The notes below the pieces were generated by a model, which saw only the letters and a list, made by a program, of their open reading frames with translations, searched no databases and was not told the origin of the DNA. A stretch of 43,932 nucleotides of DNA from Halobellus captivus (GTDB taxonomy: Archaea; Halobacteriota; Halobacteria; Halobacteriales; Haloferacaceae). Positions 5,890 to 34,685 of this stretch are shown here, in pieces. The DNA lies in NCBI RefSeq assembly GCF_007655485.1, contig NZ_VJXQ01000009.1, positions 1 to 43,932 of the forward strand. Reading direction: 5' to 3'. The number at the start of each line of letters is the position of its first letter. Position 1 is the first letter of the stretch. A program made the position numbers and the translations under genes.

Positions 5890-5904
5890 TAATCTAAGGA
5901 TGGA

Positions 5905-14836: not shown

Positions 14837-14841
14837 TAGAA

Positions 14842-15672
14842 TCAGGACTCCGTCGGACCGAGCGTGCCCGGGTCGACGTTAATTCGGAGGCGATACTCAC
14901 TGTCGTATGATCCCTGCTCGCTCTGCGTTGGGTCGAGCAGCGAGTACCCGCTCGTGAACGACGCGACGAGCGTCTCACGCGTTGGGAGGTCGATACTCAG
15001 CTGGTCGGCCAAGTAGACGATTCGCTTGGTCGCCGCGCCGTTGTCAAGCCGCTGGAGATACTCGCCGACCGTCGCCCACGAACAGGCTTGGTCGTCCGCC
15101 GCGACCATCGCCGTTGCGAGTTCGCGGATGCCACCGCAGTACTCGGGATGGTCGGCACAGTCGACAAGCGTCTTCGCCAGGTCGGCGACGTTCACGACAG
15201 TTCCCTCGATGGACGTCGGCTCGTAGCCGAAGAACTTCCGCTCGGTGACCGTCGCGACGCGATAGGGGACGCCGTGAATCTCGCGACTCTGGGCTCGCGT
15301 CGGGGTGACGACGTACACGGTTCGGGGAACCTGTTCGGTCAGCCCGTGATGGCTGAGGGCGCTGTAGTAGCCGATGTACATCGGCTCAGCGACGTGCGAG
15401 GCGATGAGATACTCGTGGGTCGTGTACACGGCCTCCTCGCCAGCAGCGAGGGGGATGATGAGATATCGGCCGGGGAGCAGCCGGTCCAGCCACCCTTTCT
15501 CGGTGAGGCGGGAGGCGATCTCGCGGGCGGTGTTCGGCGCGACCTCGAGGGTCGCCTCGACGTCGTCGATCGAGATTATTTGGTGGCCCTCCGCGGCGAG
15601 ATGCGAGAGGAGTCGGCTCTCACGGGTCGAAAGGCCCTGCCGTATAGTTTGTGTCTCTTGTGTGGAACTCAT
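14842..15672 (-). CDS. AbiEi-like antitoxin, winged-helix repressor
   Basis: A 276-residue partner of the AbiEii gene. Residues 15-75 form a winged helix (LSTRESRLLSHLAAEG, then TAREIASRLTEKGWLDRLLPGRYLI). The middle resembles AbiEi C-terminal domains: AEPMYIGYYSALSHHGL, PRTVYVVTP, then TERKFFGYEP and VADLAKTLVDCADHPEYCGG. AbiEi proteins neutralise AbiEii and repress their own promoter. Upstream of the ATG a CATATTCTATG stretch about 25 bases away could be the TATA element. The family call is strong; autoregulation is by analogy. Confidence 0.88.
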   Translation of the reverse strand: MSSTQETQTIRQGLSTRESRLLSHLAAEGHQIISIDDVEATLEVAPNTAREIASRLTEKGWLDRLLPGRYLIIPLAAGEEAVYTTHEYLIASHVAEPMYIGYYSALSHHGLTEQVPRTVYVVTPTRAQSREIHGVPYRVATVTERKFFGYEPTSIEGTVVNVADLAKTLVDCADHPEYCGGIRELATAMVAADDQACSWATVGEYLQRLDNGAATKRIVYLADQLSIDLPTRETLVASFTSGYSLLDPTQSEQGSYDSEYRLRINVDPGTLGPTES

Positions 15673-19025: not shown

Positions 19026-20054
19026 ATGATACGCGATGCTCGCGTTCTCCGCGCCGGGTTCGTCCCTCGGGAAGTCGAGCATCGCGACGCCGAAGTAAAC
19101 CACCTTTCCAGCGTCCTTGAGCCCATCACAAACGGTGAACCCGCCGACACCGCCATCGTCACCGGGCCGAGCGGCACTGGGAAAACCTGTATCTCACAGT
19201 TCGTCACCGAGCGCCTTCGTGAGGAGGTTCTCAACGTTGAAGCCACCTACGTCAACTGCTGGCGAAACTATACGCGCTTCCGGACGCTCTACCAGATCCT
19301 CGATGATTTCGGCGAAACCATCGATATCCACCGCCAGTCCACGCCTCACGACGAACTCATCGACCGACTCCAACAGTACGACGGGCCACGGACAGTTATC
19401 ATCCTCGACGAGGTCGACCAGCTCGAAGATCCGGGCGTTATCTACAACCTGCATAGCCTCCCGCAGTTCGCGGTTATCTGTATCGCCAACAAAGAAGAGG
19501 ACCTGTTTAGCCGCGTCGACGACCGCCTCGTGAGTCGGCTTCGATCCAGCGAACACGTCCGCATGGACAAGTACCACGACGAGCAGCTCCACGACATCCT
19601 CGATGCTCGCGTGAAAGGGGGGCTCGAACCGGACGTCGTCACGAATAACCAACTCGACCGCATTGCCGACGCCGCTGCAGGCGACGCCCGCCTCGCGATT
19701 GGCATCCTTCGGACCGCCGCGAGCAAAGCCGACCGCGAGAGCAGCGAGCGAATCACCGATGAGATCCTACTTGACTCGGCGGAAGATGCTCGCGCTCACA
19801 TCAAGCAGAAGAATCTCGACTCACTCACGCCACACCAGCGGATCGTCTACGACATCATCCGCGAACACGGGCCCCTCGGGCCGAGCGAGATCCATGATCG
19901 CTACATAGAGGAAGTCGAAGACTCGCGAACGAAACGGACTGTCCGGACGTATCTCTCGAAAATGGCGCAGTACAACCTTCTCGAAGCCGAGGGTACAAGC
20001 CGAGATCGGAAGTACTCGCTCGTCGATTCGACGGCTGCATCAGCAATCCAATAA
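19026..20054 (+). CDS. orc: Orc1/Cdc6 family replication initiator (first copy)
   Basis: A 342-residue AAA+ initiator. Walker A GPSGTGKT is at 47-54 and Walker B VIILDEVDQ at 123-131; sensor-type NKEEDLFSRVDDRLVSRLR follows near 157-175. The C-terminal 80 residues (LTPHQRIVYDIIREHGPLGPSEIHDRYIEE and on) are the winged helix that binds origin DNA. Length is slightly short for the family (usually 370-410) because the N-terminal extension is missing. Genes on either side are unrelated: a mobile cassette upstream and the Argonaute operon convergent downstream. Family assignment is secure; whether it still serves an origin is unknown. Confidence 0.92.
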   Translation: MIRDARVLRAGFVPREVEHRDAEVNHLSSVLEPITNGEPADTAIVTGPSGTGKTCISQFVTERLREEVLNVEATYVNCWRNYTRFRTLYQILDDFGETIDIHRQSTPHDELIDRLQQYDGPRTVIILDEVDQLEDPGVIYNLHSLPQFAVICIANKEEDLFSRVDDRLVSRLRSSEHVRMDKYHDEQLHDILDARVKGGLEPDVVTNNQLDRIADAAAGDARLAIGILRTAASKADRESSERITDEILLDSAEDARAHIKQKNLDSLTPHQRIVYDIIREHGPLGPSEIHDRYIEEVEDSRTKRTVRTYLSKMAQYNLLEAEGTSRDRKYSLVDSTAASAIQ

Positions 20055-20118: not shown

Positions 20119-21417
20119 TCAACCGAAGACAGGGGTAGATACGATGTTGAACATCGAGATCAGGAGGATTGCGATAAGACTTGCAAGGACTCCCAGTAGC
20201 ACGTTGCGGAACCGGTCATACCAACCCTGAACTCGATGGAATCGGCCTATCGTATCCAGCACCTGTATTAAGAATTCCATCTCGAAATAGCCGAAGACTA
20301 TGAGGTAGACGGCGGACAGTTCCGGCTGCAACGGCTGAAGATCGAACTGGGTCACTCCATCCGTCCAGAGCACGTACCCGACCAGTCCGATGACACCTAT
20401 GCCGCTCAATAATTTCAACCGCTCTTCCCGAACCCTTCGCTGCTCGAGCGTTTCGGTTTCGTCGACGAGATCGTCGTGGGCGTCACGAACCTGAGTATTT
20501 AGGTTGGATTCAGTGAGTACTAGTATTTCGTCTTCGCTGCGACCAATCACGCGGTCCAGAAACGTGAGCCCCTCGATACTGGGTGTGTGACCCGGGTTCT
20601 CGGGCCCATTGTGAAGTATATTCCCCTGGTCGTACTGGGAGTATAGCTGTTGCCACGCGTTGCGGCGCAAGTCGTCAATGACCGCGGTCGCTGCTCCAGT
20701 CTCCACCTGTCCGGCGATCTCAGTCCAGTATGTCTCGATGAACCATAGAAGAGGGAACAGGTCACTGACGTCCAATTCCGCGAGATCGATCTGCTGGAGT
20801 TCGGTGCGGACCGCCTCGCACACCGCGGGGTCGTATCCGGAGCGTTCCAAGCGGACGGGTTCAAGATAGGCCAACCACACTACGTCCGGCCACTCCGAAT
20901 CCCGGTGGTCGTGGAGCAGCGTTTCGAAGAAAGTGTCGTACTCCTTAACCCATCCAAGTGTTCGGATCCCCACCCAGGCACAGTACACATACAGCGGCGT
21001 CCCGAAAAACTGGAGCTCAGGATCTTTGATTCGCTCCCCTGACCGGCGTTTATACTCCTTGACCTCCTGTTCTATCTCCCGTTTGAATACATCCATCACC
21101 TCCTCGGAAATACCTCGGTCGTCCGGGCGGTCAGCCAAATACGTCGCAATCAATCCCAGCGCCGCGATCGTTGACTGCGGAACCCGGTCGAACGCCTGGT
21201 CGGCCACCCACCGCTCCAACTCGTCATCGATCTGCGTCAACTGATCCCCTGCATCTTCGTGCGTCTGCAGGGCCCGCCCGACACATGCTGTCGCCAACGC
21301 ACTCCCGTACCATCCAGGTCGCTCCCGATGAGGGTCGTACTGATCGTGAACCGCACGGTGCAGCAGCAGTTTCAGGTCGGTAGCTTCACTGGCACCGCCA
21401 TTGGTCACAGGAACCAT
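20119..21417 (-). CDS. Three-TM protein in the Argonaute operon, candidate effector
   Basis: A 432-residue protein, last in the Argonaute operon. Residues 1-300 are soluble, helical and repeat-like with many Trp and Tyr residues (WYGSALATACVGRAL, YVYCAWVGIRTLGW); a coiled segment with many Glu/Arg covers 300-333. Three membrane segments close the chain near 335-351, 367-385 and 405-426. Its start overlaps the end of the PIWI gene by 13 bases, so production is coupled. The plan, a soluble domain followed by C-terminal membrane helices, resembles the membrane effector Aga2 of the Sulfolobus islandicus short-Argonaute system; I claim architecture, not homology. A role in depolarising or permeabilising the membrane on guide-directed activation is inference. 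Confidence 0.65.
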   Translation of the reverse strand: MVPVTNGGASEATDLKLLLHRAVHDQYDPHRERPGWYGSALATACVGRALQTHEDAGDQLTQIDDELERWVADQAFDRVPQSTIAALGLIATYLADRPDDRGISEEVMDVFKREIEQEVKEYKRRSGERIKDPELQFFGTPLYVYCAWVGIRTLGWVKEYDTFFETLLHDHRDSEWPDVVWLAYLEPVRLERSGYDPAVCEAVRTELQQIDLAELDVSDLFPLLWFIETYWTEIAGQVETGAATAVIDDLRRNAWQQLYSQYDQGNILHNGPENPGHTPSIEGLTFLDRVIGRSEDEILVLTESNLNTQVRDAHDDLVDETETLEQRRVREERLKLLSGIGVIGLVGYVLWTDGVTQFDLQPLQPELSAVYLIVFGYFEMEFLIQVLDTIGRFHRVQGWYDRFRNVLLGVLASLIAILLISMFNIVSTPVFG

Positions 21418-22715
21418 GGTCGGTCCTGCAGCCGGTCATTCACGAGCTGGTTCGGATTCAGCGAGATGACTTTCTCGCGGGCTAGGTATTGGCTGGCCTC
21501 GAACAGCTCCGCAATGTCCTTAGCGTACCGAAGCGTAATCGGGGTGCCAGCCCCCATCTGGTCCTTCCAGTAGACCGAGCACAGCGAGAACGTGTTCTGC
21601 GCCAGTCCGACCATATCGTCCCGCGTAATCTCCTCTATGCCTTCGACCCGCATGGCAATCGGTGAGGCTGAGCCGTTACGGAATCGTTTGCGGCCATCGG
21701 TCACGACAAGGCCCTTGTTGTACCCGGTCTGGAGGAACCAGCCTGGCTCCGGCAGCCCGGATGAATGGTTCGGGTCGTGGGTCTTGTACGGGTGGGTCGT
21801 GTTCAGGTGGAGCAGTACGACCTCGGTGTTGTCGTATTCGTCCTCGATCTTGCGGCGAGCCGACCGCTCCGTATCACCGATGCGCTCCGGCGTGTGGATA
21901 ATGATTCTACGGGGTGGCTGCTCGCGCTTGACGTACTCATCGACTACGTTACAGATGGTGTCGGTGAGTTTCGTTTCGAGTTCGCTGACATCGCCTCCGG
22001 AGGTCTCCGAGTCGAACCAGAAGAAAGAGCCGTTGCTTTGGTAGGCCGCGGCGAACCCCAGCGTCCGTTCGAGGGAGCCGTGTTTCTCGGGCTGGTAGTA
22101 GCTACGGCCAATTCCGACAACGAGATCCGCGTTATACCCGGTTTCTTCAACACCCCACGGCTTGCCGCCGAGCTTCGCATAGATTTGGCATACCGTGTTG
22201 ACGATGGCGTATTTCAGGTCGTAGTCGTCCTCGATGTTCCCGACCCTCATCATCTGAGTAGGGATGCCCTGTTCGGTCAGTTTCGCTTTCGCTATCCAGT
22301 ACGGCGACACCTGACCGAGCCGTTTCATCCGCTCTGCAGTCAGGAAGATGGCGACGCCGTCAAGGTTGCGGCGGACCACCTCTTCCGCCGCCTCCTTGTA
22401 GTTGGCCACGCTGTCACCCTCCATCTCCAGGCCATTGATTGTGATTTCGTCCAGTTTGAAAAACCGTTCAAACCCGCCACCGAAATACTCGTAGCCGTTT
22501 TTCAGGACGTTGATCAAGCGTTCCCCTTCGGATTGCCACTGCTCGGGGTAGACGACAGTGAGGGTGGAGCCGTCGATCCAGTCGTTGTGCTGGGAGTCGA
22601 GCGGTCCATACCGGGAGAGGCCCTTGCCGACGTTACCGTGGGTGGCGCTCGGCGACCCGTAATCGAAGCGGTGGGTCGGGTCTTCCAACTCCTCTATGTT
22701 GAGTCGTAGTGCCAT
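21405..22715 (-). CDS. MID-PIWI Argonaute protein, probably catalytically inactive
   Basis: A 436-residue protein with the features of a prokaryotic Argonaute lacking the N and PAZ half. The MID-type segment YWIAKAKLTEQGIPTQMM (139-156) matches the 5'-phosphate pocket pattern Y, K, Q. The PIWI fold follows: IVNTVCQIYAKLGGKPW (171-187), ADLVVGIGRSY (196-206), FAAAYQSNGSFFWF (221-234), RRIIIHTPERIG (269-280), and the closing strand PITLRYAKDIAELF (392-405). The first catalytic Asp of the DEDX set is replaced by Gly203 (GIG for GID), and the usual RDG is HTP, so cleavage is unlikely. It begins six bases after its partner's stop. Such inactive short Argonautes act as guide-directed sensors that switch on a partner. 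Confidence 0.8.
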   Translation of the reverse strand: MALRLNIEELEDPTHRFDYGSPSATHGNVGKGLSRYGPLDSQHNDWIDGSTLTVVYPEQWQSEGERLINVLKNGYEYFGGGFERFFKLDEITINGLEMEGDSVANYKEAAEEVVRRNLDGVAIFLTAERMKRLGQVSPYWIAKAKLTEQGIPTQMMRVGNIEDDYDLKYAIVNTVCQIYAKLGGKPWGVEETGYNADLVVGIGRSYYQPEKHGSLERTLGFAAAYQSNGSFFWFDSETSGGDVSELETKLTDTICNVVDEYVKREQPPRRIIIHTPERIGDTERSARRKIEDEYDNTEVVLLHLNTTHPYKTHDPNHSSGLPEPGWFLQTGYNKGLVVTDGRKRFRNGSASPIAMRVEGIEEITRDDMVGLAQNTFSLCSVYWKDQMGAGTPITLRYAKDIAELFEASQYLAREKVISLNPNQLVNDRLQDRPWFL

Positions 22716-22721
22716 CTATGT

Positions 22722-23717
22722 CTATTCTCCTCTGAGTTTGATCGGGTCGGTGTCAAACTCGACCGTTTGTCCGTTCGGTAACGGGAACTCACCGCCAATC
22801 TCTGCGACGACTTCCCGCAACTGGTCGTGCTCGTATTTTGCCCGCTTGTCCCGATCCGCGTGGCTCGGCATGTCAACCGCTTTCCGTGGGATGTCCCGGG
22901 CGATGTTCTTATAGCGGTTGCCGTGTTTGTCGACCGTCCACTCCTTGATGTTCTCGTAGTTGGCTTCGATGGCCACCCGGTCGGCTGGCGGATTCTTGTC
23001 GATTCCGTCAAGGTGGTCGGCTAACGCGACAAATGGGGTGTCGTCGCTGTCGCTGTACCGACATGCTTCACCACCATCGGTGAACGCGTCGAACTGGCCG
23101 ATTGCCCGTGTCTCCCCGTGGAATGTACAATCCTCATGGGGGCAGTCGCTTGGACAGTTCATCCGCAGCCAGTAATCCGTCTCGTTGACGCCGTCCAGCA
23201 CCTCGTCAAGCGGCTTCGTGAAGTGGTTCGTACTCCTCGGATTCAACACAAGGCCGACATACGGGCCGTGACCGGGCAGGTCCCAGTACTGGGACCGAAT
23301 CTGTAACCCGGAATGCACGTCAAGCCCGTCGACTGGACTGTACCGCGACTCAGGATCGAATAATCGGTCCACCCGGTTGAGGGCGACTTCCGTTTGGTCT
23401 TCTTGTAGGGGTAGCCACCCGTGTTCGTCGATTAAGTACCGGATGAACCCATACTTGCAGAGGTTCGCGTATGGCCCCAGGAATTCCATTGGGTCCACTG
23501 TTCGCTGTTCAAACCCTGTCAGGAACTCGTCGTCGAGTTTTTCACGGCCCTCTTGGTTCAGAGGGTACGCGACAGCGGGCGGGGTCCGAAACGAGACGGC
23601 AAATGAATCGAACCGTTCGTTCAGTTGCTGGGGGGTGGAGTTATCTTTAGTCGGGTACCTCCAGATGCGAAGATCCTTCGCTTGGAGTTCACATCCGAAG
23701 ATATTCAGATCCAGCAT
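22722..23717 (-). CDS. Argonaute partner with N/PAZ-side-like (APAZ-type) region
   Basis: A 331-residue protein encoded immediately before the PIWI gene. The opening FGCELQAKDLRIWRYP and a middle section GLQIRSQYWDLPG then YVGLVLNP (about 135-160) resemble the N, linker and PAZ-side strands of long Argonautes, the part missing from the downstream PIWI protein and supplied by APAZ partners in short systems. A cysteine/histidine cluster CPSDCPHEDCTFH near residue 190 could bind zinc. No TIR, SIR2 or nuclease domain is present, unlike SPARTA or SPARSA partners. Gene order and a six-base gap argue for a two-chain Argonaute. The homology is a pattern judgement and needs structural comparison. Confidence 0.6.
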   Translation of the reverse strand: MLDLNIFGCELQAKDLRIWRYPTKDNSTPQQLNERFDSFAVSFRTPPAVAYPLNQEGREKLDDEFLTGFEQRTVDPMEFLGPYANLCKYGFIRYLIDEHGWLPLQEDQTEVALNRVDRLFDPESRYSPVDGLDVHSGLQIRSQYWDLPGHGPYVGLVLNPRSTNHFTKPLDEVLDGVNETDYWLRMNCPSDCPHEDCTFHGETRAIGQFDAFTDGGEACRYSDSDDTPFVALADHLDGIDKNPPADRVAIEANYENIKEWTVDKHGNRYKNIARDIPRKAVDMPSHADRDKRAKYEHDQLREVVAEIGGEFPLPNGQTVEFDTDPIKLRGE

Positions 23718-23742: not shown

Positions 23743-23752
23743 CTAATAAGTT
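23743..23752 (-). promoter_or_regulatory. TATA box of the Argonaute operon
   Basis: ACTTATTAGG on the minus strand, centred about 30 bases before the ATG at 23717. Just upstream stands CTGTTAAACAG (23764-23774), a short palindrome that could be an operator. The operon therefore appears to have its own promoter, separate from the PIN/Panacea pair. Confidence 0.5.
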
Positions 23753-23813: not shown

Positions 23814-24635
23814 CTACAGAGAAGCGTCTGGGGCTTCGTCCCGCAGATAGATCACACGGAGTCCGGTGATCGCATCGATCTCCTGGCGGCTGTTGTAGAT
23901 GCCTGGTTCACCGTATACGACCTCGCCTTCCTCGTCTCGAATGATCTTGCCATCCTCGTCTCGGTAGGCGTCGCCCTTATCTCCGGTCAGCACGGTATGG
24001 AGCACGCCTTTCTCGTTCATGTGATGGGCATCGCAGACGATCTCGACGTCCATATTATCAGACAGCACCGTATCAACCTGATTTTTGACGCTGGAGTAGT
24101 CCTTGTCTCGGGGCGGGCCGAGCCGGATGTTGTCCCGCAAAATATCTTTCTTCTTTCTGGCGTCGCGGAAGTAGAACCGGATGAACTCCTTCTCGACCTG
24201 CCGGGCATGCTCCGGGGTGACCTCCCAGTCTCGCTTGTCCAGTTCGCGTTCGAAGAAGGTGCGAACGATGTCTTCTGCCCACTCACCGATCTCGAATTCC
24301 CGGGTGAACCGCGTGACGACGTCATCGAGCTCGATTTTCTGATCACTATCCTCCATGTCAAGTAGCCAGTCCTCGAACTCGAACCGCTTATCACGGAACT
24401 CCGACAGTAGGGCGTTGAACTTGCCCTGTTCCGCACTCCAGGTCAGATCGCGGCCATCCGGCGGTGGATAGTCCTCGTCCTGCGCGGTATCCTTGTTGCA
24501 GTATTCGAACAGCACGGCCTCCCCGATGTACAGGGCGTTACCCGAGTCGAACCAGCGAGTGGCGTCATTGTTCCACCAATCCAGGAACAACGTATACCCG
24601 AGCAGTAAATTGGTATCGGCATGGAACCGTGGCAT
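23814..24635 (-). CDS. PIN-domain-like nuclease
   Basis: A 273-residue protein opening RFHADTNLLLGYTLFLDWW, typical of PIN domains with the first metal ligand at D7. Other acids in plausible order are E39 (IGEAVLFEY), D202 (EIVCDAHHMNE) and D219 (VLTGDKGD). A helical insertion of about 150 residues sits between the two halves, making it roughly twice the length of a VapC toxin. The C-terminus (DAITGLRVIYL) ends in the expected last strand. PIN domains cut RNA, often tRNA or mRNA. It starts six bases after the Panacea-like gene and ends 96 bases before the Argonaute operon. Confidence 0.7.
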   Translation of the reverse strand: MPRFHADTNLLLGYTLFLDWWNNDATRWFDSGNALYIGEAVLFEYCNKDTAQDEDYPPPDGRDLTWSAEQGKFNALLSEFRDKRFEFEDWLLDMEDSDQKIELDDVVTRFTREFEIGEWAEDIVRTFFERELDKRDWEVTPEHARQVEKEFIRFYFRDARKKKDILRDNIRLGPPRDKDYSSVKNQVDTVLSDNMDVEIVCDAHHMNEKGVLHTVLTGDKGDAYRDEDGKIIRDEEGEVVYGEPGIYNSRQEIDAITGLRVIYLRDEAPDASL

Positions 24636-24641
24636 CGATGG

Positions 24642-25508
24642 TTAGTAGGCGGGAAAGCCGAGGAGTGATTCGCTCACCGCATCCGAGAGGTCGCGCACAA
24701 TATCGTCCTCTTCCAAGGTGGGGCCGAACTCCGTTTGTTCACGCTCGCGGTTGCGTAGCGATTCGCGGAGCCGGGCCTTGTACTCGTCAACATCGTCCGA
24801 GATCTCGCTTCGGATTTCCCTGACGGTCATGTCGCTGTGTTTGCGTTGCGCGAGCTCGATAGAGAAGATCGTCCAGAACCGATCCGAAATGCTGAGCAGG
24901 GTCTCCGGTTTGTAGCGTTCCTCATCCAGCTCCGTGCTCATCACGCCGTACCACAGGTAGAGGTCGTCCTCAAACTCGGGAAACTCATCGGTGGGGAAGC
25001 TCCGAACCACCCGTGACAGGGACCGGCGAACCGCATCGGGGTCGTACCCTTCCTCCATGAAGTCAGGGTGCTCATCGGTTGCGGTCCGGAGCTGTTTGTC
25101 CATCTCCCGGTAATGCCGCTGCACCTTGTATGGGGCGTCCTCGTACTGGCGGTCCGTGATACCCTCAAGACCACCTTGCTGTACATACCGGGAGAATTCC
25201 TGACTGATCACCATCTTGGCCTTGTCGACCACTGATTCGGAGTGATCGAGCGACGTTGGCGTCACCGGACACTGGACTGCCGTCCCGCCGTCAGTCTGGG
25301 CGATTGAGACGGCCGAGTCCGAAAGTTTTGCCATGGTCCCGTATCGGTACCAGTAGTATGGGATATCGGCGTCAATGCCTTCCTCCTGAAGTCCACGTTT
25401 GATGAAGTACAGGAGCTTGTGCAGCTCCTTTTCCCGGAGTGGATTGTCAAAATCACGGATGTCGAGGAGGAGGGCTGTGACCTCGTCCACGCTCAGCGTC
25501 GGAGGCAT
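24642..25508 (-). CDS. Panacea-like (DUF4065/SocA type) protein, putative antitoxin
   Basis: A 288-residue protein. Residues 22-70 read FDNPLREKELHKLLYFIKRGL, then IPYYWYRYGTMAKLSDSAV, the pattern of Panacea-domain proteins (a K-L-L-Y-F helix, then W-x-Y/R-Y-G-x-x and the S/L helix). Panacea antitoxins neutralise many unrelated toxins and are usually the first gene of the pair. The remaining 200 residues are helical and of unknown role. It shares an operon with the PIN-like gene six bases downstream, so an antitoxin-toxin arrangement is the simplest reading. Cooperation with the nearby Argonaute operon is possible but not shown. Confidence 0.6.
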   Translation of the reverse strand: MPPTLSVDEVTALLLDIRDFDNPLREKELHKLLYFIKRGLQEEGIDADIPYYWYRYGTMAKLSDSAVSIAQTDGGTAVQCPVTPTSLDHSESVVDKAKMVISQEFSRYVQQGGLEGITDRQYEDAPYKVQRHYREMDKQLRTATDEHPDFMEEGYDPDAVRRSLSRVVRSFPTDEFPEFEDDLYLWYGVMSTELDEERYKPETLLSISDRFWTIFSIELAQRKHSDMTVREIRSEISDDVDEYKARLRESLRNREREQTEFGPTLEEDDIVRDLSDAVSESLLGFPAY

Positions 25509-25530: not shown

Positions 25531-25541
25531 TACTTATACGT
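25531..25541 (-). promoter_or_regulatory. TATA box of the Panacea/PIN operon
   Basis: CGTATAAGTAA on the minus strand, centred about 28 bases before the ATG at 25508. Confidence 0.55.
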
Positions 25542-25851: not shown

Positions 25852-26541
25852 TTATTCCAAGCTAAAGTCGCCGAGTCCGGATTGTTCGTGCCCCAGTGAT
25901 TCGATCACCGACGGATCGTCGTTGTCGGGGCTGTTGACGTGCATCGATATCTCGTACGCCTCAAGGTCGTCGTCCGGGTAGGGCTGGCACATGTTTGCGC
26001 GTTCATCCGGGCCAGCAGTGAGCCACGTCTCCTCGGCGCCGTCGGGGAGAACAATTGGCATCCGGTCGTGAATTGGCTGCATCAGATCGTTCGGCTCCGT
26101 CGTCAGGATGGTCACGCACGAAATGTCTCTTTCCTCTCCTTCCCAGACCTCCCAGAGACCGGCCATCGCGAACGCCGGGGCGTCCTCACGGTAGATTCGA
26201 TAGGGTTGCTTGGGGCCGCTGTCCCGCTTCTGCCACTCGTAGAACCCCGACGAAAGAACGAGACAGGGCCGCGAGTCCCAGGCATCGCGGAAGGCTCGTT
26301 TCTCGGCTGCAGTTTCAGAGCGAGCGTTGATAATCCCCTCTCCGGGATCGTCCGCCCACGACGGGAGGAGGCCCCAATGATACTGGTCGATCTCGGCGGC
26401 GGCCCGGTTGGTGATGACGTCCAGCTGCTCTCCAGGGGCGATATTGTATCTCGGAGCGTACCCGCCGTCCGTGACGACCTCCGCTCCGAAATGCTTCTCG
26501 AGGTCTTCCTGGGTTGCGAACAGCGCGTTTCGCCCACACAT
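25852..26541 (-). CDS. SRAP-domain abasic-site protein (HMCES/YedK family)
   Basis: A 229-residue protein beginning MCGRNALF; Cys2, exposed after removal of Met1, forms the covalent link to abasic sites in single-stranded DNA. Other family residues are present: N72 in IINARSET, E102 in SGFYEWQ, and H158 in PIHDRMP. I chose the start at 26541 because catalysis requires Cys at position 2; a frame open 90 bases upstream is not coding. SRAP proteins shield abasic sites during replication and SOS-type repair. A pair of GTTAACCAACA inverted sites lies 82-124 bases upstream. Confidence 0.93.
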   Translation of the reverse strand: MCGRNALFATQEDLEKHFGAEVVTDGGYAPRYNIAPGEQLDVITNRAAAEIDQYHWGLLPSWADDPGEGIINARSETAAEKRAFRDAWDSRPCLVLSSGFYEWQKRDSGPKQPYRIYREDAPAFAMAGLWEVWEGEERDISCVTILTTEPNDLMQPIHDRMPIVLPDGAEETWLTAGPDERANMCQPYPDDDLEAYEISMHVNSPDNDDPSVIESLGHEQSGLGDFSLE

Positions 26542-26622
26542 ATCTCTCTTCTCGAGGAGAGTGAGCATCAAAGTATGGTAGCTGTGCGACGTAGAACGAG
26601 AACAGGGGAGTCGTTCAACAGT

Positions 26623-26665
26623 GTTAACCAACAGCTAGGAGTTATCCTACGGCGTGTTGGTTAAC
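26623..26665. promoter_or_regulatory. GTTAACCAACA inverted pair, copy 1 (before SRAP gene)
   Basis: GTTAACCAACA at 26623-26633 and its exact inverse TGTTGGTTAAC at 26655-26665, with 21 bases between. The same pair occurs at 35157-35199 and 39975-40018. It lies upstream of the minus-strand SRAP gene. Confidence 0.75.
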
Positions 26666-26780
26666 ATAGGTGGCTGCCGTGTACCTAAATTCAGTTCCTG
26701 AACCACTTTTAGACGGTACGTTCCGAGAGTCAGAACCGGAATACTGGAGAGCGTTTCTCCGGCCCCTAACTGAAGGTGGT

Positions 26781-28805
26781 TCAGTACTCTTCGGTAATGC
26801 AGCTGTTTATCCATTCGATGGCGACCTGGCCATCCATTTCGGTGAATCGATCAATCTCTCGGTGATGGGCGATGGCGTTGCGGAATTCTGCGAAGTCCTC
26901 AAACCGGGTTTGAACCGCTGATTTCGATGGTAGGTAATCCCCGAAAACGTCCCAGCGAGCGTTGATGATCTTTGCGTAGTCCATCACGTTACAGAAGTCA
27001 AGTTTGTCTCGATCAGAGTCGACAGTGAACTCGGGATTACTGTCTTGCTCCTCGCTAATACGCCGCTGAACGTTCGAGTTCACATCGTTCGGGACTTCAC
27101 CCCAGAACGTGCCTCCATCGCTTGCTAGAGCGAGTTCTCTGTCAATGAAGTCTCGAACCAATACCTCCGTCTCTTTGACGGCGCTCTGTGGGTCATTTCG
27201 GAGATCAGATTCGAGAGCGGAATACTCCCCGATCAGTTCCATGAATTCGGAGTACACGAGTTCCGCCCTCTGTTCCTGGAACGTATCATAATCGTTGTCC
27301 CAGATACCCGAGTCCTCGTCATGGGGGATAAGGTGCGAATCCATGATTCGCTCAAACTCATTTACATCATTTGCGAGTCTTCCAAAGTACTCTTTTGCGG
27401 AGGTGTCCGAGAGACGGCGGTTAAGCTCGGCAGGAATGAAGGTAATGTCCATAATGCTCTTCCGTTCCTTTTTCGAGTAGTCTAACCCCCGCAGATAGGC
27501 GTTCGGAAAGATGTGATGCTTGTTGAGACGGAAGTCAGCGTACTCGTTTTCCGTCAGGTCAATTTCTGATCCGTCCTCGAAGTGAAGAGGTCGGTTCCGT
27601 GCAAGGAGACAGAGGAATGCATTCCTGAGGCCTGAAGTGGACCGCTTGATATTGGTTGTTTTGAGGCGTTCTGTGCTAATCTGCGGCGTGAAGTTGATTT
27701 CAACATCTTCTCCGGCGATGATCCTGTCGACCAGTTTGCTATCTTCAGTCATTCTGGTCTGTGCAGAACTGCTGTACCGACCCGAGAGAGCGACCCGCCA
27801 GAACCAGCGGTCTATCTGTTCCTGGTGGTCTGGATCGACATTCCTGCGATCTGTCTCATACATATAATATGCGAGCACAGGAATCATTCCTTCGTACGGA
27901 ATGAACTCGGACCGTTTCACTCCGTGTTGTTTTCTGAGATAGCCAATCGCGGAGATCATAGCCTCCTTGGTATCCTCCCAGTTCTCTCTGACATCATCGG
28001 GATCGAGATTCTTCTGAGCGTCCGTGCTGCACGTTCCATCAATGTTGAGAGCCAGGGTCTGGGTCACGGTGCCTCTGTCAATCTCCCCGAACCCGATCTG
28101 GTCTAAGTGCTCGAAAATATCCTCGTCGATGCGGCTACGAAGATTGAAATCCCTTGACCAGATGTTGGCGTTAACTATATCGAAGCGGCTGAGTCGCGTC
28201 CCTTTCTGATTGATCCGCTCGAAGATGTTTATGACGCTCTCAACTTCGTTCGTCTTGACGATGATAAGTGGGAGTTCGTATTTCGTCAGCGCATCGTTGC
28301 AATCAGTGAACGCCTCATATCGATCGTCCTCTAACTCGTCGCGAACCTCTCGCTTGTCGTCCCAGATGTCGCAGACTCGTACAAGGTGGTCGGCTTTGCC
28401 TTCTGCAACTTTGAACGTCTCTTCGTCAAGGTCAAAGACGATGCGGCTGTAGTCCGTGTCCGCATATTTCATCCCGTTGAGCGTAACGTAGAGCGAGGTT
28501 AGCCGTTGTTGGCCGTCAAGCACGAAACTGATTTCGGGGAATTCGGACCGCTGGATTTCTTCAAGTGAGGGCTGCTGGAGTTCGTCGACATCTCGGAAGA
28601 AGTCCCACATATCGTGCGGGACTCGCCAGAAGAAGAAACTCCCGATGGGGTAACTCTTGTAGATACTGTCGAAGAGATCGACGACGTCGGTTCGGTCCCA
28701 GACGAATTCTCGCTGGAACTCTGGAATGCGGTATTTTCCTTTCCCGACCTGAGTGATTACGTCGTCAAGACGTCGGTCATCGACGTCCAAGCTCACATTC
28801 CGCAT
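26781..28805 (-). CDS. GmrSD-like DUF262-HNH protein with C-terminal HEPN motif
   Basis: A 674-residue protein. Residues 10-110 are the DUF262 (GmrS-type) domain with IPEFQREFVWD (27-37) and DGQQRLTSLY (97-106), the nucleotide-binding signature of type IV modification-dependent enzymes. Residues 425-465 carry the HNH/DUF1524 nuclease motif HHIFPNAYLRG (430-440), followed by ITFIPAELNRRL. Residues 540-674 form a helical domain ending FRNAIAHHREI, with the HEPN-type R642-N643-x-x-x-H647 motif. GmrSD enzymes cut DNA with glucosylated hydroxymethylcytosine; substrate here is unknown. It stands alone with a TATA box 27 bases before its ATG. Confidence 0.87.
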   Translation of the reverse strand: MRNVSLDVDDRRLDDVITQVGKGKYRIPEFQREFVWDRTDVVDLFDSIYKSYPIGSFFFWRVPHDMWDFFRDVDELQQPSLEEIQRSEFPEISFVLDGQQRLTSLYVTLNGMKYADTDYSRIVFDLDEETFKVAEGKADHLVRVCDIWDDKREVRDELEDDRYEAFTDCNDALTKYELPLIIVKTNEVESVINIFERINQKGTRLSRFDIVNANIWSRDFNLRSRIDEDIFEHLDQIGFGEIDRGTVTQTLALNIDGTCSTDAQKNLDPDDVRENWEDTKEAMISAIGYLRKQHGVKRSEFIPYEGMIPVLAYYMYETDRRNVDPDHQEQIDRWFWRVALSGRYSSSAQTRMTEDSKLVDRIIAGEDVEINFTPQISTERLKTTNIKRSTSGLRNAFLCLLARNRPLHFEDGSEIDLTENEYADFRLNKHHIFPNAYLRGLDYSKKERKSIMDITFIPAELNRRLSDTSAKEYFGRLANDVNEFERIMDSHLIPHDEDSGIWDNDYDTFQEQRAELVYSEFMELIGEYSALESDLRNDPQSAVKETEVLVRDFIDRELALASDGGTFWGEVPNDVNSNVQRRISEEQDSNPEFTVDSDRDKLDFCNVMDYAKIINARWDVFGDYLPSKSAVQTRFEDFAEFRNAIAHHREIDRFTEMDGQVAIEWINSCITEEY

Positions 28806-30310: not shown

Positions 30311-32455
30311 ATGCCGTTCAAAATCGACTTCCTCGACGACCGCGTCCTCGAATGGGAAGCGACGACCGACGGCGCCGTGGCCACTGAGCGCCGGGACTAC
30401 ACACCGCGGTTCCATGTCGCCGCTCGCTCGCCAGAGACTGACGTCGATCTCTCTGGACTTCAGGCGTTCTACGAGCGCCATCCGGACGTCGTCGCGACCG
30501 AGTACGTCGACCGACACCCTGGATTTCGTCGTGACCTGGAGCGGGTCCTTGCCGTCGACGTTTCACACATCGACCGGGTGACGGCGCTCGCCCGCCAGAC
30601 GCGCCAACTCTCCGAATACCCCATCGGCGATATCGCCTGTTTCAACGTAGACTTCTCGCGGGAGTTCCGCTACTGTCTGGAGAACAACGTCAATCCGACG
30701 CCGGCGAACGAGCTGTCGACGCTCCACCTCAGTATCCCGGTGACCGAGACGAACAGTAAAACCTACACCGAACTCGGCGTCGACGGCGAGACCGTCACGG
30801 GCCCGCCGGAGGAACTCCTCGCTGCTGTGCAGGACGCGCTCGACGTACGCGACCCGGATGTCCTTGTGTGCTCGACGAGCGAGATCATCCCGACGCTCTA
30901 CGCGATGGCTCGCGACGCCGGCGTCGACGGCTTCACGCTGAGTCGGTGGCCCAACGTCGACTACCAGCAGCTCGCCGGTCGGTCGACGTATTCGAGTTAC
31001 GGCCGGGTGGGACACTCCCCTGCCCGCTACAACGTGCCGGGACGGGCTATCATCGATGAGTCGAACGCGTTCTTCTTCGGTGAGACGAACCTCGACGGCA
31101 TCCTCGACCTCGTCACTCGGTCGAAAAAGCCAATCCAGGAACTCGCGTGGGCGTCGATTGGGAACGTCCTCACTGCCATCCAGATCTGTGAAGCACACAA
31201 GCGCGGTGTGCTGACGCCATGGAACTCCTGGCGACACGAGTTCTACAAGCCGATGACCACGCTTCACGACGCTGACCGCGGTGGCTTCATCTTCGCGCCC
31301 GAAGTCGGCCTCCACGAGGACGTCCACGAACTCGACTTTTCGAGTCTCTATCCGAATATCATCTGCACGCGGAACGTCTCGCCCGATGTCATCCGGTGTG
31401 ACTGCCACAGCGACCGCGACGATGTGCCCGGCCTCGGCTACGCGATCTGTGACGACCGCGGCTACCTCGTCGACGTCCTCCAGCCAATCATCGATGCGCG
31501 CGACGAGATCAAGACCGCAATCCGTCGCGAAGAACAGCGGGAGAACCCCGACCAAGACTGTCTCGACGAACTCGAGGGGCGGTCGGCCGCGCTAAAGTGG
31601 ATTCTCGTCGCGTGCTTTGGGTATCAGGGATTCAGTAACGCGAAATTCGGCCGAATCGAGTGCCACGAAGCAATTAACGCGTTCGCTCGGGAGATCCTGC
31701 TCATCGCGAAACAGCGGTTGGAAGCGGGCGGATGGCGCGTCGTTCACGGGATCGTCGACTCGATCTGGGTGACGCCCGACCCGGACGTCAGCGACGACGA
31801 ACGAGGATCACTGGAGACGTTGGCCGCCGAGATTACGGACACCGTCGATATCCGTCTCGAATATGAAGCCGAGTACGAGTGGGTAGCGTTCGTGCCACAG
31901 CGCGAGAGCGACGCCGGCGCGCTGACGAAATATTTCGGGAAGGTTGCGGGCAAGGACGAGTTCAAGATACGCGGCATCGAAGCCCGGCAACGATCGACGC
32001 CCGGATTCATCGAAGACGTCCAGCGCGACTGTCTCGAGATTCTCGGTCAAACGCAATCTCCGGATGTGGTAATTAATCGCTTGGAACGGGCGATTTCGGA
32101 GCTTCACGCTGGCGATGTCGATTCCGACCGACTCGTCGAACGGAACCGTGTTTCCAAGCCTGTCGAGGCGTACACGCAGTACACCCAGAACGTGGCGGCA
32201 CTCGAGCGTGCTCGGGACCAGGATCTCGCGGTCCATCCCGGTCAAGATGTCGAGTACGTGGTCGTCGACGACGAGAAGGCATCACGAGAACGTGTCGCCC
32301 TTGCTCACGAAGAGACGGACCAGTATGATCCATCGTACTATGAGACGCAGCTGGTCCGAGCTGTCGAGAGTATTATCTCACCCTTGGGATGGGATCGGTC
32401 GGATATCCGACGAAGGTTAGCAAAGACACGAACGACTAAGATCACCTCGTTCTGA
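30311..32455 (+). CDS. PolB-family DNA polymerase, proofreading site degenerate
   Basis: A 714-residue family B polymerase. Polymerase motif A is intact (LDFSSLYPNI, D342), motif B is present (ALKWILVACFGYQG, K429, G437) and motif C reads HGIVDSIWV (479-487), keeping one Asp of the usual DTDS. The exonuclease half is present but changed: the Exo I DxE is LHLSIP (138-143) and Exo II is DPDVLVCSTSE (181-191) without the Asn-Asp pair, so proofreading is probably lost. This pattern fits the archaeal PolB2-like group found on plasmids and mobile elements, possibly used in lesion bypass. It closes a three-gene operon and is followed by the iteron-bearing origin. Confidence 0.85.
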   Translation: MPFKIDFLDDRVLEWEATTDGAVATERRDYTPRFHVAARSPETDVDLSGLQAFYERHPDVVATEYVDRHPGFRRDLERVLAVDVSHIDRVTALARQTRQLSEYPIGDIACFNVDFSREFRYCLENNVNPTPANELSTLHLSIPVTETNSKTYTELGVDGETVTGPPEELLAAVQDALDVRDPDVLVCSTSEIIPTLYAMARDAGVDGFTLSRWPNVDYQQLAGRSTYSSYGRVGHSPARYNVPGRAIIDESNAFFFGETNLDGILDLVTRSKKPIQELAWASIGNVLTAIQICEAHKRGVLTPWNSWRHEFYKPMTTLHDADRGGFIFAPEVGLHEDVHELDFSSLYPNIICTRNVSPDVIRCDCHSDRDDVPGLGYAICDDRGYLVDVLQPIIDARDEIKTAIRREEQRENPDQDCLDELEGRSAALKWILVACFGYQGFSNAKFGRIECHEAINAFAREILLIAKQRLEAGGWRVVHGIVDSIWVTPDPDVSDDERGSLETLAAEITDTVDIRLEYEAEYEWVAFVPQRESDAGALTKYFGKVAGKDEFKIRGIEARQRSTPGFIEDVQRDCLEILGQTQSPDVVINRLERAISELHAGDVDSDRLVERNRVSKPVEAYTQYTQNVAALERARDQDLAVHPGQDVEYVVVDDEKASRERVALAHEETDQYDPSYYETQLVRAVESIISPLGWDRSDIRRRLAKTRTTKITSF

Positions 32456-32491
32456 CCCTGCGGTTGCAACAAGATACAGCTGGAACCACAC

Positions 32492-32512
32492 ACCCCCCTC
32501 GTTCGGAATGAG
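32492..32512 (-). repeat. Origin iteron 1 (inverted orientation)
   Basis: On the minus strand it reads CTCATTCCGAACGAGGGGGG followed by T. It is the only copy pointing the other way, across the AT-rich block from the rest. Confidence 0.85.
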
Positions 32513-32862
32513 ATTATACCCTCCATACCACCTGATTAGAAGCTGAGTTTCCACCCGATGAGAAGGTTGCAGTAATGGATTCGTTGGGTATACGCCCTCG
32601 ACGTATGGTCTACTGCTTCGATTCAAAGGATAGAATAGCTGTACTTCCAGTGTTAGGCGTATTCACGAATACTTCTAACTAGTGCCGTATTCTACTTAGT
32701 GGGCTCTTAGCGTAACTAGGTAATAAAGCTAGGGTAGTAACTAGACAAGTGATCCTTCGAAGTCTACGCTATCTTGCGGTTTGGAGAGAATGGCTCGTCC
32801 TAGTTAAGAACCGCCTAGTTGGTTGATGGAAGATCGCGCCCATACGGTCAGTCTTACGGGAT

Positions 32863-32883
32863 CTCATTCCGAATCAGGGGGGT
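32863..32883 (+). repeat. Origin iteron 2
   Basis: CTCATTCCGAATCAGGGGGG followed by T; the consensus copy. Confidence 0.85.
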
Positions 32884-32957
32884 GTGTCCCTCCAACTCCA
32901 ATCTCCATCCATCCTGTTTAAGCTGGCATCAATATCGTCCATTAGTTCGGGGAACAG

Positions 32958-32978
32958 CTCACTCCGAATCAGGGGGGT
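32958..32978 (+). repeat. Origin iteron 3
   Basis: CTCACTCCGAATCAGGGGGG followed by T; one difference from consensus. Confidence 0.85.
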
Positions 32979-33024
32979 CTCTTTAGCATTCCCGATTCTT
33001 GGCTGATGGACCAACTCGTACTAC

Positions 33025-33045
33025 CTCATTCCGAACGAGGGGGGT
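33025..33045 (+). repeat. Origin iteron 4
   Basis: CTCATTCCGAACGAGGGGGG followed by T; identical to the inverted copy 1. Confidence 0.85.
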
Positions 33046-33102
33046 TGATCTGAACCCGCTGATCATTTGAGCTGCTGGCAATCCTCTCGTTCTAGGAAAT
33101 AG

Positions 33103-33123
33103 CTCACTCCGAATTAGGAGGGT
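33103..33123 (+). repeat. Origin iteron 5
   Basis: CTCACTCCGAATTAGGAGGG followed by T; three differences from consensus. Confidence 0.8.
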
Positions 33124-33156
33124 GAGGTCATCAGGAGACGCAGATTTGAACGACAC

Positions 33157-33176
33157 CTCACTCTGAATCGGGTATC
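33157..33176 (+). repeat. Origin iteron 6 (degenerate)
   Basis: CTCACTCTGAATCGGGTATC; the first half is kept, the G-string is lost. Confidence 0.6.
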
Positions 33177-33236
33177 ATCGGGTATGGCGGTGCCACCTAT
33201 CGATCTTCCGCTGTTTAGCACCGATATCCAACGAAT

Positions 33237-33256
33237 CTCATTCCGAACCAGGGGGT
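33237..33256 (+). repeat. Origin iteron 7
   Basis: CTCATTCCGAACCAGGGGGT, one G shorter than consensus, 35 bases before the Orc1/Cdc6 start. Confidence 0.82.
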
Positions 33257-33290
33257 AACGACTAAGTAGGTTCCTTCCCAGGATGAATCT

Positions 33291-34685
33291 ATGACAGACA
33301 ACGAGGAACCAGATGGTGGAGGTGACTCGTCTATCGCGGACCAACAGCTGGATGATTTCGATACAAACAGGGAGGGCAGTTCTGCTTCTGAAAGCTCGTC
33401 GACCTCGGAGGAAATCCAACGACAAGACTCGAACGATCCGGCAAATGACCCGTTGTTCGTTCGGGAGGGCGATGAAGACGGTTCTTCAACTCATATCTGG
33501 GCAGATCGGGATTTACTCTCAATTGGAACAGTTCCTGGCCCTGATCGCATCGTCGGTCGTGACACGGAAATCCAATCGGTTGCTGGAGAAATCCGACATC
33601 TCATTCACGAATCACAACCAAACCACGTCGTCATTTATGGGGAAACCGGAACTGGAAAATCACTTGTCAGCCGACACGTGTCCGACCGTCTCGTTGATAC
33701 TGCCACGGCACGTAACGTTCCCGCTGCTAGCGTCTACGTTGAGTGCAAGAAGAATAATACCGAAACACGAGTAGCCCGAACAATCGCTCGTGCGCTAAGC
33801 GACAAATCTGATTCTGATATAGATATCCCTCGTATCGGTTTAGGTTCCGCCGAGTACTACGATTACGCCTACGACATCATCGACGAGTACTACGATGGGC
33901 TCATTGTCATCCTTGACGAAATCGACATGGTTGATAACGCTGAGGGCCTCCTCCATGAACTCTCGCGGGCTCGAGAAGCTGGTCACACCGACGCCTATAT
34001 CGGAATCATTGCTATCAGCAACGACATCGATTTTGGACAAAAACTCAACGCACGCGTTCAGAGTTCGATGCGGACAACGGACTTCGTCTTTGAACCATAC
34101 CAAAGCGATCAGATCGAACAGATCCTGGAGTATCGACGAGACGCGTTCCATGATGGTGTCGTTCAAGACGGCGTCATAACCGAGACTGCCGACCGGTCGG
34201 CGGATGAACACGGTGATGCGAGAAAGGCAGTCGATGTTTTGCGGATTGCTGGTGATATCGCTGACGACACCGATGCAGAGGTCGTCAGTCCAGAACACGT
34301 CGACAAAGCAGTCAAGCGAGCAGAGGTTAATCGAGTCAAGGAGACGATCGAGAGCACCTCACCCCAGTCTAAACTCGTTCTCTACACTCTCGGTCGCTTG
34401 ACTGGCTCGAATAATCGCCGCTTCCGCACCTCTGGTATCTACAGTCAATACGAGACGACCTGTGGCGACGTCGGTGCTGATCCTCTCTCATATGATCGAG
34501 TGAGCCAAATTCTCAGCACGCTCGCGCTAATGGGGATTTCTGAGTCACATCAGGTCGGTGGCGGACACAAACAGGGTGTCTACCTGGAACACCAGCTTAT
34601 CAAGGACAAAGATGTAGTGATGAAGGCAGTTGTAGAGAGCGATGAACGGCTTTCAGAACTTCACAACGGAACCTACGAGATTTGA
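33291..34685 (+). CDS. orc: Orc1/Cdc6 family replication initiator (origin-linked copy)
   Basis: A 464-residue AAA+ initiator. The first 65 residues are acidic and serine-rich, as in plasmid Orc proteins. Walker A GETGTGKS is at 117-124 and Walker B VILDEIDM at 206-213; sensor 1 is AISNDIDFG. The C-terminal 120 residues (TSPQSKLVLYTLGRL, then SQILSTLALMGIS and VGGGHKQGVYLEH) form the winged helix that binds origin DNA. It is surrounded by nine matching repeats, seven upstream and two downstream, so it is very likely the initiator for this origin. A likely start is the ATG at 33291. Confidence 0.94.
   Translation: MTDNEEPDGGGDSSIADQQLDDFDTNREGSSASESSSTSEEIQRQDSNDPANDPLFVREGDEDGSSTHIWADRDLLSIGTVPGPDRIVGRDTEIQSVAGEIRHLIHESQPNHVVIYGETGTGKSLVSRHVSDRLVDTATARNVPAASVYVECKKNNTETRVARTIARALSDKSDSDIDIPRIGLGSAEYYDYAYDIIDEYYDGLIVILDEIDMVDNAEGLLHELSRAREAGHTDAYIGIIAISNDIDFGQKLNARVQSSMRTTDFVFEPYQSDQIEQILEYRRDAFHDGVVQDGVITETADRSADEHGDARKAVDVLRIAGDIADDTDAEVVSPEHVDKAVKRAEVNRVKETIESTSPQSKLVLYTLGRLTGSNNRRFRTSGIYSQYETTCGDVGADPLSYDRVSQILSTLALMGISESHQVGGGHKQGVYLEHQLIKDKDVVMKAVVESDERLSELHNGTYEI

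Follow-up and report, generated by a model that had tools for sequence, protein, structure and literature searches.

The window analysed here – a 43,932-nucleotide stretch of the haloarchaeon Halobellus captivus (contig NZ_VJXQ01000009.1) – carries a cassette of five co-directional genes, transcribed from the minus strand in the order PANA, PIN, AgoN, PIWI and a gene for a 432-aa protein, with spacings of 6, 96, 6 and -13 bp (Table 1). The subject of this report is the leading pair, PANA–PIN, which recurs beside Argonaute genes across the haloarchaea and which may represent a toxin–antitoxin-like part of their Argonaute cassettes. Its presence in the window, next to the Argonaute operon and on the same strand, had been noted in an original prediction from the DNA alone, and both open reading frames (ORFs) are indeed found there. 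The two genes are 6 bp apart in the window and between -4 and +13 bp apart in most related loci (numbered L below; genomes are numbered G), which corresponds to the layout of PanAT toxin–antitoxin loci, with two genes separated by less than 100 bp.

Table 1. Genes and promoter-like elements of the Argonaute cassette in the window
Feature	Positions	Strand	Description
PANA	24642-25508	(-)	288 aa; divergent Panacea-like N-terminal domain and conserved all-helical C-terminal domain; putative antitoxin/regulator
PIN	23814-24635	(-)	273 aa; PIN-fold nuclease with ~145-residue helical insertion; putative toxin/effector
AgoN	22722-23717	(-)	putative N-terminal half (N-L1-L2-like) of split long-B prokaryotic Argonaute (pAgo)
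PIWI	21405-22715	(-)	MID-PIWI half of split long-B pAgo; PF02171 5.9e-15; presumably catalytically inactive
432-aa protein	20119-21417	(-)	three C-terminal hydrophobic segments; putative membrane effector
TATA-like element	25534-25538	(-)	30 bp upstream of PANA start
TATA-like element	23744-23748	(-)	31 bp upstream of AgoN start

The adjacency of PANA–PIN to Argonaute genes is far beyond chance. Among 391 haloarchaeal genomes, that of H. captivus included, relatives of PIN occur in 36 genomes at 37 places, and 36 of these places adjoin Argonaute-type genes – one of them (L118) only a fragment of an APAZ gene. The remaining place, in G036, was treated as a chance match (E 9.7e-4, residues 118-253), as hidden Markov model (HMM) searches find no PIN, PANA, Argonaute or APAZ gene there. 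A control search with the window's PIWI protein located 43 pAgo places (one per genome), of which 39 lie in genomes other than that of H. captivus, G102, G212 and G234; PANA–PIN is adjacent to none of these 39. Relatives of PANA itself are present in 42 of the 391 genomes: that of H. captivus, G102, 33 genomes with the layout described next and seven with a more distant PANA.

The five-gene order of the window is shared, within this sample, by its own genome and G102. A commoner layout, found in 33 genomes at 34 places, has PANA–PIN divergent from a two-gene unit consisting of an APAZ gene (here termed c2, with a product of mostly 462-492 aa) and a gene for a PIWI protein of about 470 aa; among these, L118 lacks PIWI and retains a mere fragment of c2, and the L116 contig ends within PIWI. 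At L095, c2 belongs to the PADLOC family Aga_REase_Archaea (PDLC02417, 9.4e-171) and PIWI is a class I short pAgo (pAgo_I, 2.1e-145). The c2 residues D47, E64 and K66, which we take to be the pattern expected of PD-(D/E)XK nucleases, are invariant in all 20 aligned sequences, and the C-terminal half of the protein matches solved APAZ proteins, including DREN-APAZ (1.3e-8); the best relatives of the accompanying short pAgo in the PDB are likewise the Argonautes of DUF4365-, HNH- and DREN-APAZ complexes. A search of the 391 genomes with c2 returned 33 genomes and 34 places, every one of them adjoining PANA–PIN, and these genomes are exactly the PIN genomes once those of H. captivus, G102 and the weak G036 are set aside. 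The same PANA–PIN family is thus coupled to two different Argonaute types.

Other collections give the same picture. Scanning GTDB species contigs for a PANA pattern yielded 10 loci, all with adjacent Argonaute-type genes, and among 19 plasmid records with PANA – all haloarchaeal by name – the 10 that were opened all have the pair beside such genes; each set includes one locus with only an APAZ-gene fragment, which is the same locus in the 391-genome and GTDB sets. The locus of Halegenticoccus soli (from the GTDB scan) is of the window type, as is that of Haloplanus rallus plasmid pMBLA003601, whose PANA, PIN and last gene product are 57%, 46% and 33% identical to those of the window, whereas the cassette on plasmid pNG600 of Haloarcula marismortui ATCC 43049 is intact and of the commoner type, with all four genes annotated as hypothetical. 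Removal of repeats (6 of the 10 GTDB loci and 10 of the 19 plasmid records, one being a second H. marismortui record) left 49 distinct Argonaute-linked loci, 4 of the window type and 45 of the commoner type. No PANA match was obtained in 50,697 phage records or in a pattern scan of IMG/VR. The original prediction had proposed such a survey, and had named pairs occurring only away from Argonaute genes as the outcome that would speak against a single system; what we find is adjacency, at 36 of 37 places in the genomes and at all 10 loci in both the GTDB set and the opened plasmids.

PIN has no Pfam match above the cut-off, none in PADLOC or NCBIfam and none by Foldseek at E<=0.001, so that its assignment comes from structure comparison. 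With its AlphaFold model (mean predicted local distance difference test score, pLDDT, 89), the top 15 matches in VIA-align 2 have Z scores of 11.5-9.6 over 119-132 residues, with root-mean-square deviations of 2.8-4.0; by title, 9 of these are VapC, VapBC, PIN or toxin–antitoxin complex entries, 5 are archaeal proteins without an assigned function and 1 is a chain of the CbCas9-PcrIIC1 complex. That last one (8wmm chain G) is the best structural match; a PIN-like fold may be present in a further guided defence system. Across 23 aligned sequences (the window's included; the others 24-43% identical to it), the acidic residues D196 and D219 are invariant, and D7, E44 and D202 are kept in at least 90% (numbers are alignment positions plus one, the start Met having been dropped from the alignment). 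On the model, PIN is therefore read as a PIN-fold nuclease with a kept acidic active site, its activity being predicted. The helical insertion, previously put at 150 residues, is borne out at about 145: five helices, at about residues 48-193, separate the helix bearing E44 from that bearing D196. At 273 aa, PIN lacks the compact size of VapC, the structure chains titled VapC or VapBC having 126-145 residues.

PANA is harder to place. It gives no SocA_Panacea match in Pfam at E<=1 and has no PADLOC or NCBIfam family, and a PF13274 scan of its own genome returned nothing. In profile–profile comparison, its residues 9-122 nonetheless align with six haloarchaeal Panacea proteins (five above the PF13274 cut-off and one neighbouring ORF added by eye) at an hhalign probability of 90.9% and E 1.1e-6. 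The Gly-Pro that is invariant in those six proteins is replaced in all 21 Argonaute-linked PANA sequences – by Gly-Thr in 14, the window's among them, by Gly-Ala in 6 and by Gly-Val in 1 – but two of four relatives from pairs lacking an Argonaute ('solo' pairs, see below) keep it, one as Gly-Pro-Val, a pattern consistent with descent from Panacea. The predicted Panacea-type N-terminus thus holds as a distant profile-level relationship, though not as a Pfam-recognisable or signature-bearing Panacea domain; the long C-terminus, described as unknown, proves to be a conserved domain (about residues 126-261), all-helical in the model and without a family match. Foldseek found no match for PANA at E<=0.001. 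A VIA-align match to a DarTG chain (Z 9.0, residues 3-137) was set aside as proof of fold, because an unrelated helical domain scores equally high. Scans of Pfam, PADLOC and NCBIfam gave no VapB-family match, VapB itself not having been compared directly.

On the Argonaute side, the window's PIWI protein is closest in the PDB to EcAgo (3.9e-20), which we take to be a long-B pAgo, followed by RsAgo entries (5awh and others, 1.4e-16) and AF1318 (AfAgo, 1e-11). RsAgo is described as a long-B pAgo in the available text of PMC10954474, and long-B pAgos are all described as inactive in that of PMC6299218. AgoN, 44-45% identical in two sister loci, has no sequence match in the PDB; a weak match of the protein (5.2e-4; its G102 homologue 1.8e-4) to the N-terminal part of PADLOC's class II profile pAgo_II, together with gene order, suggests that it is the N-terminal half of a split long-B pAgo. 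The 432-aa protein, whose gene comes last in all four window-type cassettes, has hydrophobic segments at residues 334-352, 369-387 and 408-426 by hydropathy and no match in Pfam, PADLOC, NCBIfam or the PDB. As there is no APAZ-gene match in the window or elsewhere in its genome, and the PIWI protein is long-B-like, the window cassette is not of the SPARDA/Aga_REase_Archaea type.

Several lines of evidence indicate that the cassette, PANA–PIN included, is almost certainly one unit of inheritance. In 4 of 12 comparisons between related loci, the conserved block equals the cassette to within a few bases: in the commoner type, L095 versus L163 (9082-13709, from the PIN stop to the PIWI stop), L095 versus L101 (9085-13711) and L107 versus L108 (9123-13735), and in the window type, L091 versus L161 (5443-10813, running from where the last gene ends up to the PANA start), so that either layout moves as a cassette. 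Moreover, distances among PANA, PIN, c2 and PIWI sequences correlate with r of 0.887-0.954, none of 5000 permutations reaching as high a value for any of the six gene pairs; this test, run without a host-tree control, used 13-18 rows per gene pair after removal of rows less than 10% apart in the first gene, and left out L118, the window, L091, near-copies and the loci without Argonaute. In the PANA tree, from which L184 is absent, the three window-type sequences form one clade (support 100/99) that nests inside the commoner type (91/90). Since the reverse nesting is not rejected (approximately unbiased test, p 0.19), we claim no direction for the exchange of Argonaute genes.

Within this unit, the window cassette probably comprises two transcription units, as judged from promoter-like motifs (raw counts with a loose motif list). 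All 4 window-type loci have a TATA-like element at -29 to -31 from the PANA start and another at -31 to -33 from the AgoN start, so that the Argonaute genes are probably transcribed from a promoter of their own; none precedes any of 26 distinct PIN or 18 PIWI starts. Overall, 10 of 29 distinct PANA starts, the 4 of the window type included, have such an element, and the commoner type gives a mixed signal, with 6 of 25 PANA starts and 3 of 23 c2 starts.

The pair can also be found away from Argonaute. In all seven genomes with a distant PANA (L126-L129, L208-L210), PANA has a PIN relative as its immediate neighbour, and no HMM match to c2 or PIWI occurs at any of these loci. An alignment of the L126-L129 PINs matches the Argonaute-linked PIN profile at 97.5% hhalign probability (E 8.1e-12), and that profile, built without solo pairs, by itself detected PIN in 3 of these 4 loci; searching with the solo PIN profile recovers the PINs of L208, L209 and L210 at 2e-22 to 3e-42. 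At L127 (7018-19242), the pair sits inside a co-directional DISARM operon, DrmE-PANA-PIN-DrmA-DrmB-DrmC-MTase (MTase, methyltransferase), and at L208 (4691-16307) it is divergent from DrmA-DrmB-DrmC, followed by a gene with a weak match to the DrmE C-terminus (6.7e-8). PANA–PIN is hence a separable module, as 7 of the 42 PANA genomes hold an Argonaute-free pair and two of these pairs lie inside DISARM loci. To the question whether pair and Argonaute make up one larger system or two independent ones, the answer is that they are not independent: the pair is inherited with the Argonaute genes as a single unit, with the qualification that it is a separable module. The notion that it forms a system solely by virtue of Argonaute is ruled out by the distant Argonaute-free pairs and those in DISARM.

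Decay of the cassette is informative as well, albeit with small numbers and possible sequencing errors. Where the Argonaute half is broken (L110, L118, L123, L183 and L187), all five loci have an open PIN ORF and four a whole PANA. In L183 (halophilic archaeon DL31) and L187 (Halosimplex aquaticum), the c2 region is interrupted by transposase genes and PANA–PIN is whole.

The reading we favour, and give about an even chance, is that PANA–PIN is a toxin–antitoxin-like module integral to haloarchaeal Argonaute cassettes, with PIN as a second effector restrained by PANA. We infer here that PIN is toxic, that PANA neutralises it and that Argonaute activity sets it free. PIN would be an RNase cutting host or viral RNA, and PANA would bind and restrain it by direct contact, as PanA antitoxins are described to do in the available text of PMC8832971; the helical insertion of PIN is a likely contact surface for either PANA or the substrate. 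Recognition of invader nucleic acid by the Argonaute complex, or disturbance of the cell by the invader, would then lift the restraint, and PIN, once free, would act alongside the primary effector – the putative membrane protein in the window type, the PD-(D/E)XK-like nuclease in the commoner one – to induce dormancy or death. Both the small gap between the two genes and the leading position of the putative antitoxin gene fit PanAT loci as portrayed in the same text (PMC8832971).

A number of observations weigh against this reading. Argonaute-linked PANA lacks the Gly-Pro-Val signature that PMC8832971, in its available part, holds critical for neutralisation by Panacea antitoxins. In L118 and L189, PANA is frameshifted and PIN is open, which a strict antitoxin should not allow and which argues against full-length PANA being indispensable; in both frameshifted genes, an ORF covering 155 or 237 model positions persists at the N-terminal end. 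In L124, PIN is cut short near the contig end and the rest of the cassette, the Argonaute genes included, is whole. Eight of the 12 locus comparisons gave a block that runs beyond the cassette, is interrupted or is cut by a contig end: the overshoot is about 35 and 160 bp in L100 versus L117 and about 110 and 570 bp in L102 versus L109, and the remaining six blocks are longer or interrupted or reach a contig end. The five solo pairs outside DISARM (L126, L128, L129, L209 and L210) have no clear defence system in a PADLOC scan of 20 neighbours: the ten proteins at L126 include one weak partial SoFic match (4.8e-4), the three at L210 include one HNH-type protein with a ZorE2 match (6.7e-10), and those at L128 (two), L129 (two) and L209 (three) have no match. 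Finally, in a sample of 324 genomes of the phylum, four genomes from beyond the class pair a c2/APAZ-type gene with an adjacent PIWI gene and show no PANA or PIN nearby (L204-L207), so that the pAgo core can do without the pair. Among these four, the c2 match is strong only in L204, where the APAZ gene is split by an insertion, and in L205, and the absence of the pair is partial evidence, the L207 contig being 4.8 kb long, that of L205 ending just after PIWI and the Argonaute-linked PIN profile having missed one of the four solo loci L126-L129. PANA–PIN thus looks like a haloarchaeal addition to a more widespread pAgo core.

The same facts can be read differently. PANA–PIN might be an addiction module in its own right, one that serves to stabilise the mobile cassette or its plasmid without being tied mechanistically to Argonaute. 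This we regard as unlikely, though as the likeliest of the alternatives; in its favour are the 19 plasmid records, the five solo pairs lacking a clear defence system among their scanned neighbours, and the survival of PIN and mostly PANA where the Argonaute half is broken. What addiction alone does not predict is the choice of partners: the pair is missing from all 39 other pAgo places and occurs with only two Argonaute types, accompanies the APAZ gene in 33 of 33 genomes and recurs inside two DISARM loci. The survival of PIN also bears on a guard of the CreTA kind, in which Argonaute itself would repress or restrain PIN and its loss or inhibition by an invader would release the toxin. There is a precedent in the CreTA modules that, according to the available text of PMC9458426, protect CRISPR-Cas, and in most loci a single spacer of 91-172 bp holds the divergent promoters of both PANA–PIN and the Argonaute genes. 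No operator common to the groups was seen there by eye. Five loci with a broken Argonaute half and an open PIN, however, argue against a guard that fires on Argonaute loss, since this state should be lethal, and Argonaute-free pairs survive too; we therefore consider a guard quite improbable. Very improbable, in our judgement, is that PIN makes or trims the RNA guides of Argonaute under PANA control: Argonaute, rather than any effector, is what both cassette types have in common, and a PIN nuclease would be a plausible guide maker, but related modules exist inside DISARM loci and apart from Argonaute, and the four pAgo/APAZ loci outside the class manage without the pair.

Going beyond a toxin–antitoxin-like part of Argonaute cassettes, we tentatively consider, at somewhat less than an even chance, that PANA–PIN is a portable protein-based death switch which haloarchaea insert into immune systems with no relation to one another, namely split long-B Argonaute, DISARM, and short pAgo with nuclease-APAZ. 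If so, each host system would gain a second, RNA-cutting effector, and the pair would be a general part for coupling immunity to dormancy rather than an Argonaute accessory.

The surroundings of the cassette contain further systems. A SMODS nucleotidyltransferase (5905-7020), a ThiF/JAB protein (3520-5889) and a TIR-SAVED effector (2234-3523) form an operon at 2234-7020 that is presumably CBASS-like; a protein of 1050 aa (8628-11780), likely the product of another defence gene, has a SIR2-like domain and matches AAA below threshold, and an AbiEi/AbiEii-type toxin–antitoxin pair lies at 14033-15672. Directly upstream of PANA (25852-28805) are genes for a SRAP peptidase (25852-26568) and a GmrSD protein (26781-28805), the latter matching HEPN below threshold. 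A plasmid or minichromosome-like context is suggested by two Orc1/Cdc6 genes and a family B DNA polymerase (19026-20054 and 30311-34685).

A hypothesis from 2012 proposed a coupling of prokaryotic immune systems to toxins that impose dormancy or suicide, handling pAgo and PIN toxins separately under this general idea in the available text (PMC3506569). The pAgo survey of 2018 clustered 20-gene windows and, in the part available, defined operons as continuous same-strand genes, so that a divergent PANA–PIN would lie outside its operons (PMC6299218). We found no paper linking a PANA–PIN-type pair to Argonaute in the open-licence literature, absence from which is weak evidence. A separable toxin–antitoxin-like pair fixed beside two Argonaute types, with relatives in DISARM, makes immunity–toxin coupling testable by a two-gene deletion, for which a cultured strain with an intact cassette exists in H. 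marismortui ATCC 43049, and with PANA–PIN the list of genes in archaeal short-pAgo systems would grow longer.

Among known systems, PanAT, with its Panacea (DUF4065) antitoxin, shares with PANA–PIN the Panacea-like N-terminus, the antitoxin-first two-gene layout, a C-terminal extension and the exchange of partners between loci (PMC8832971 and PMC10440598, available parts). PANA–PIN differs from it by the lack of a Pfam match, the replaced Gly-Pro, a conserved helical C-terminus of ~160 residues and the fixed association with Argonaute cassettes; the word Argonaute does not occur in the available texts of those two papers. The toxin–antitoxin network of PMC10440598 includes PIN nodes, as far as its available text goes, and its datasets could contain a Panacea–PIN pairing. 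VapC toxins share the PIN fold and acidic active site, but PIN is twice as long, has the helical insertion and is paired with a Panacea-like partner. The split long-B pAgos AfAgo-N/AfAgo and SiAgo/SiAga1/SiAga2 encode, in the available description (PMC10954474), the N-half and the MID-PIWI half separately, the next gene specifying a protein whose C-terminus is hydrophobic, as in the window, where PANA–PIN is added upstream, probably as an extra transcription unit. SPARDA (short pAgo with DREN-APAZ) and PADLOC's Aga_REase_Archaea correspond to the short pAgo and nuclease-APAZ core of the commoner cassette, which differs in having four genes in two divergent units, PANA–PIN included; the window itself has a different Argonaute type. 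CreTA, reportedly studied in Haloarcula hispanica, resembles PANA–PIN as a toxin–antitoxin unit coupled to a guided defence system and likewise studied in haloarchaea, yet CreTA is RNA-based and Cascade-dependent, whereas PANA–PIN is protein-based and persists where Argonaute is broken.

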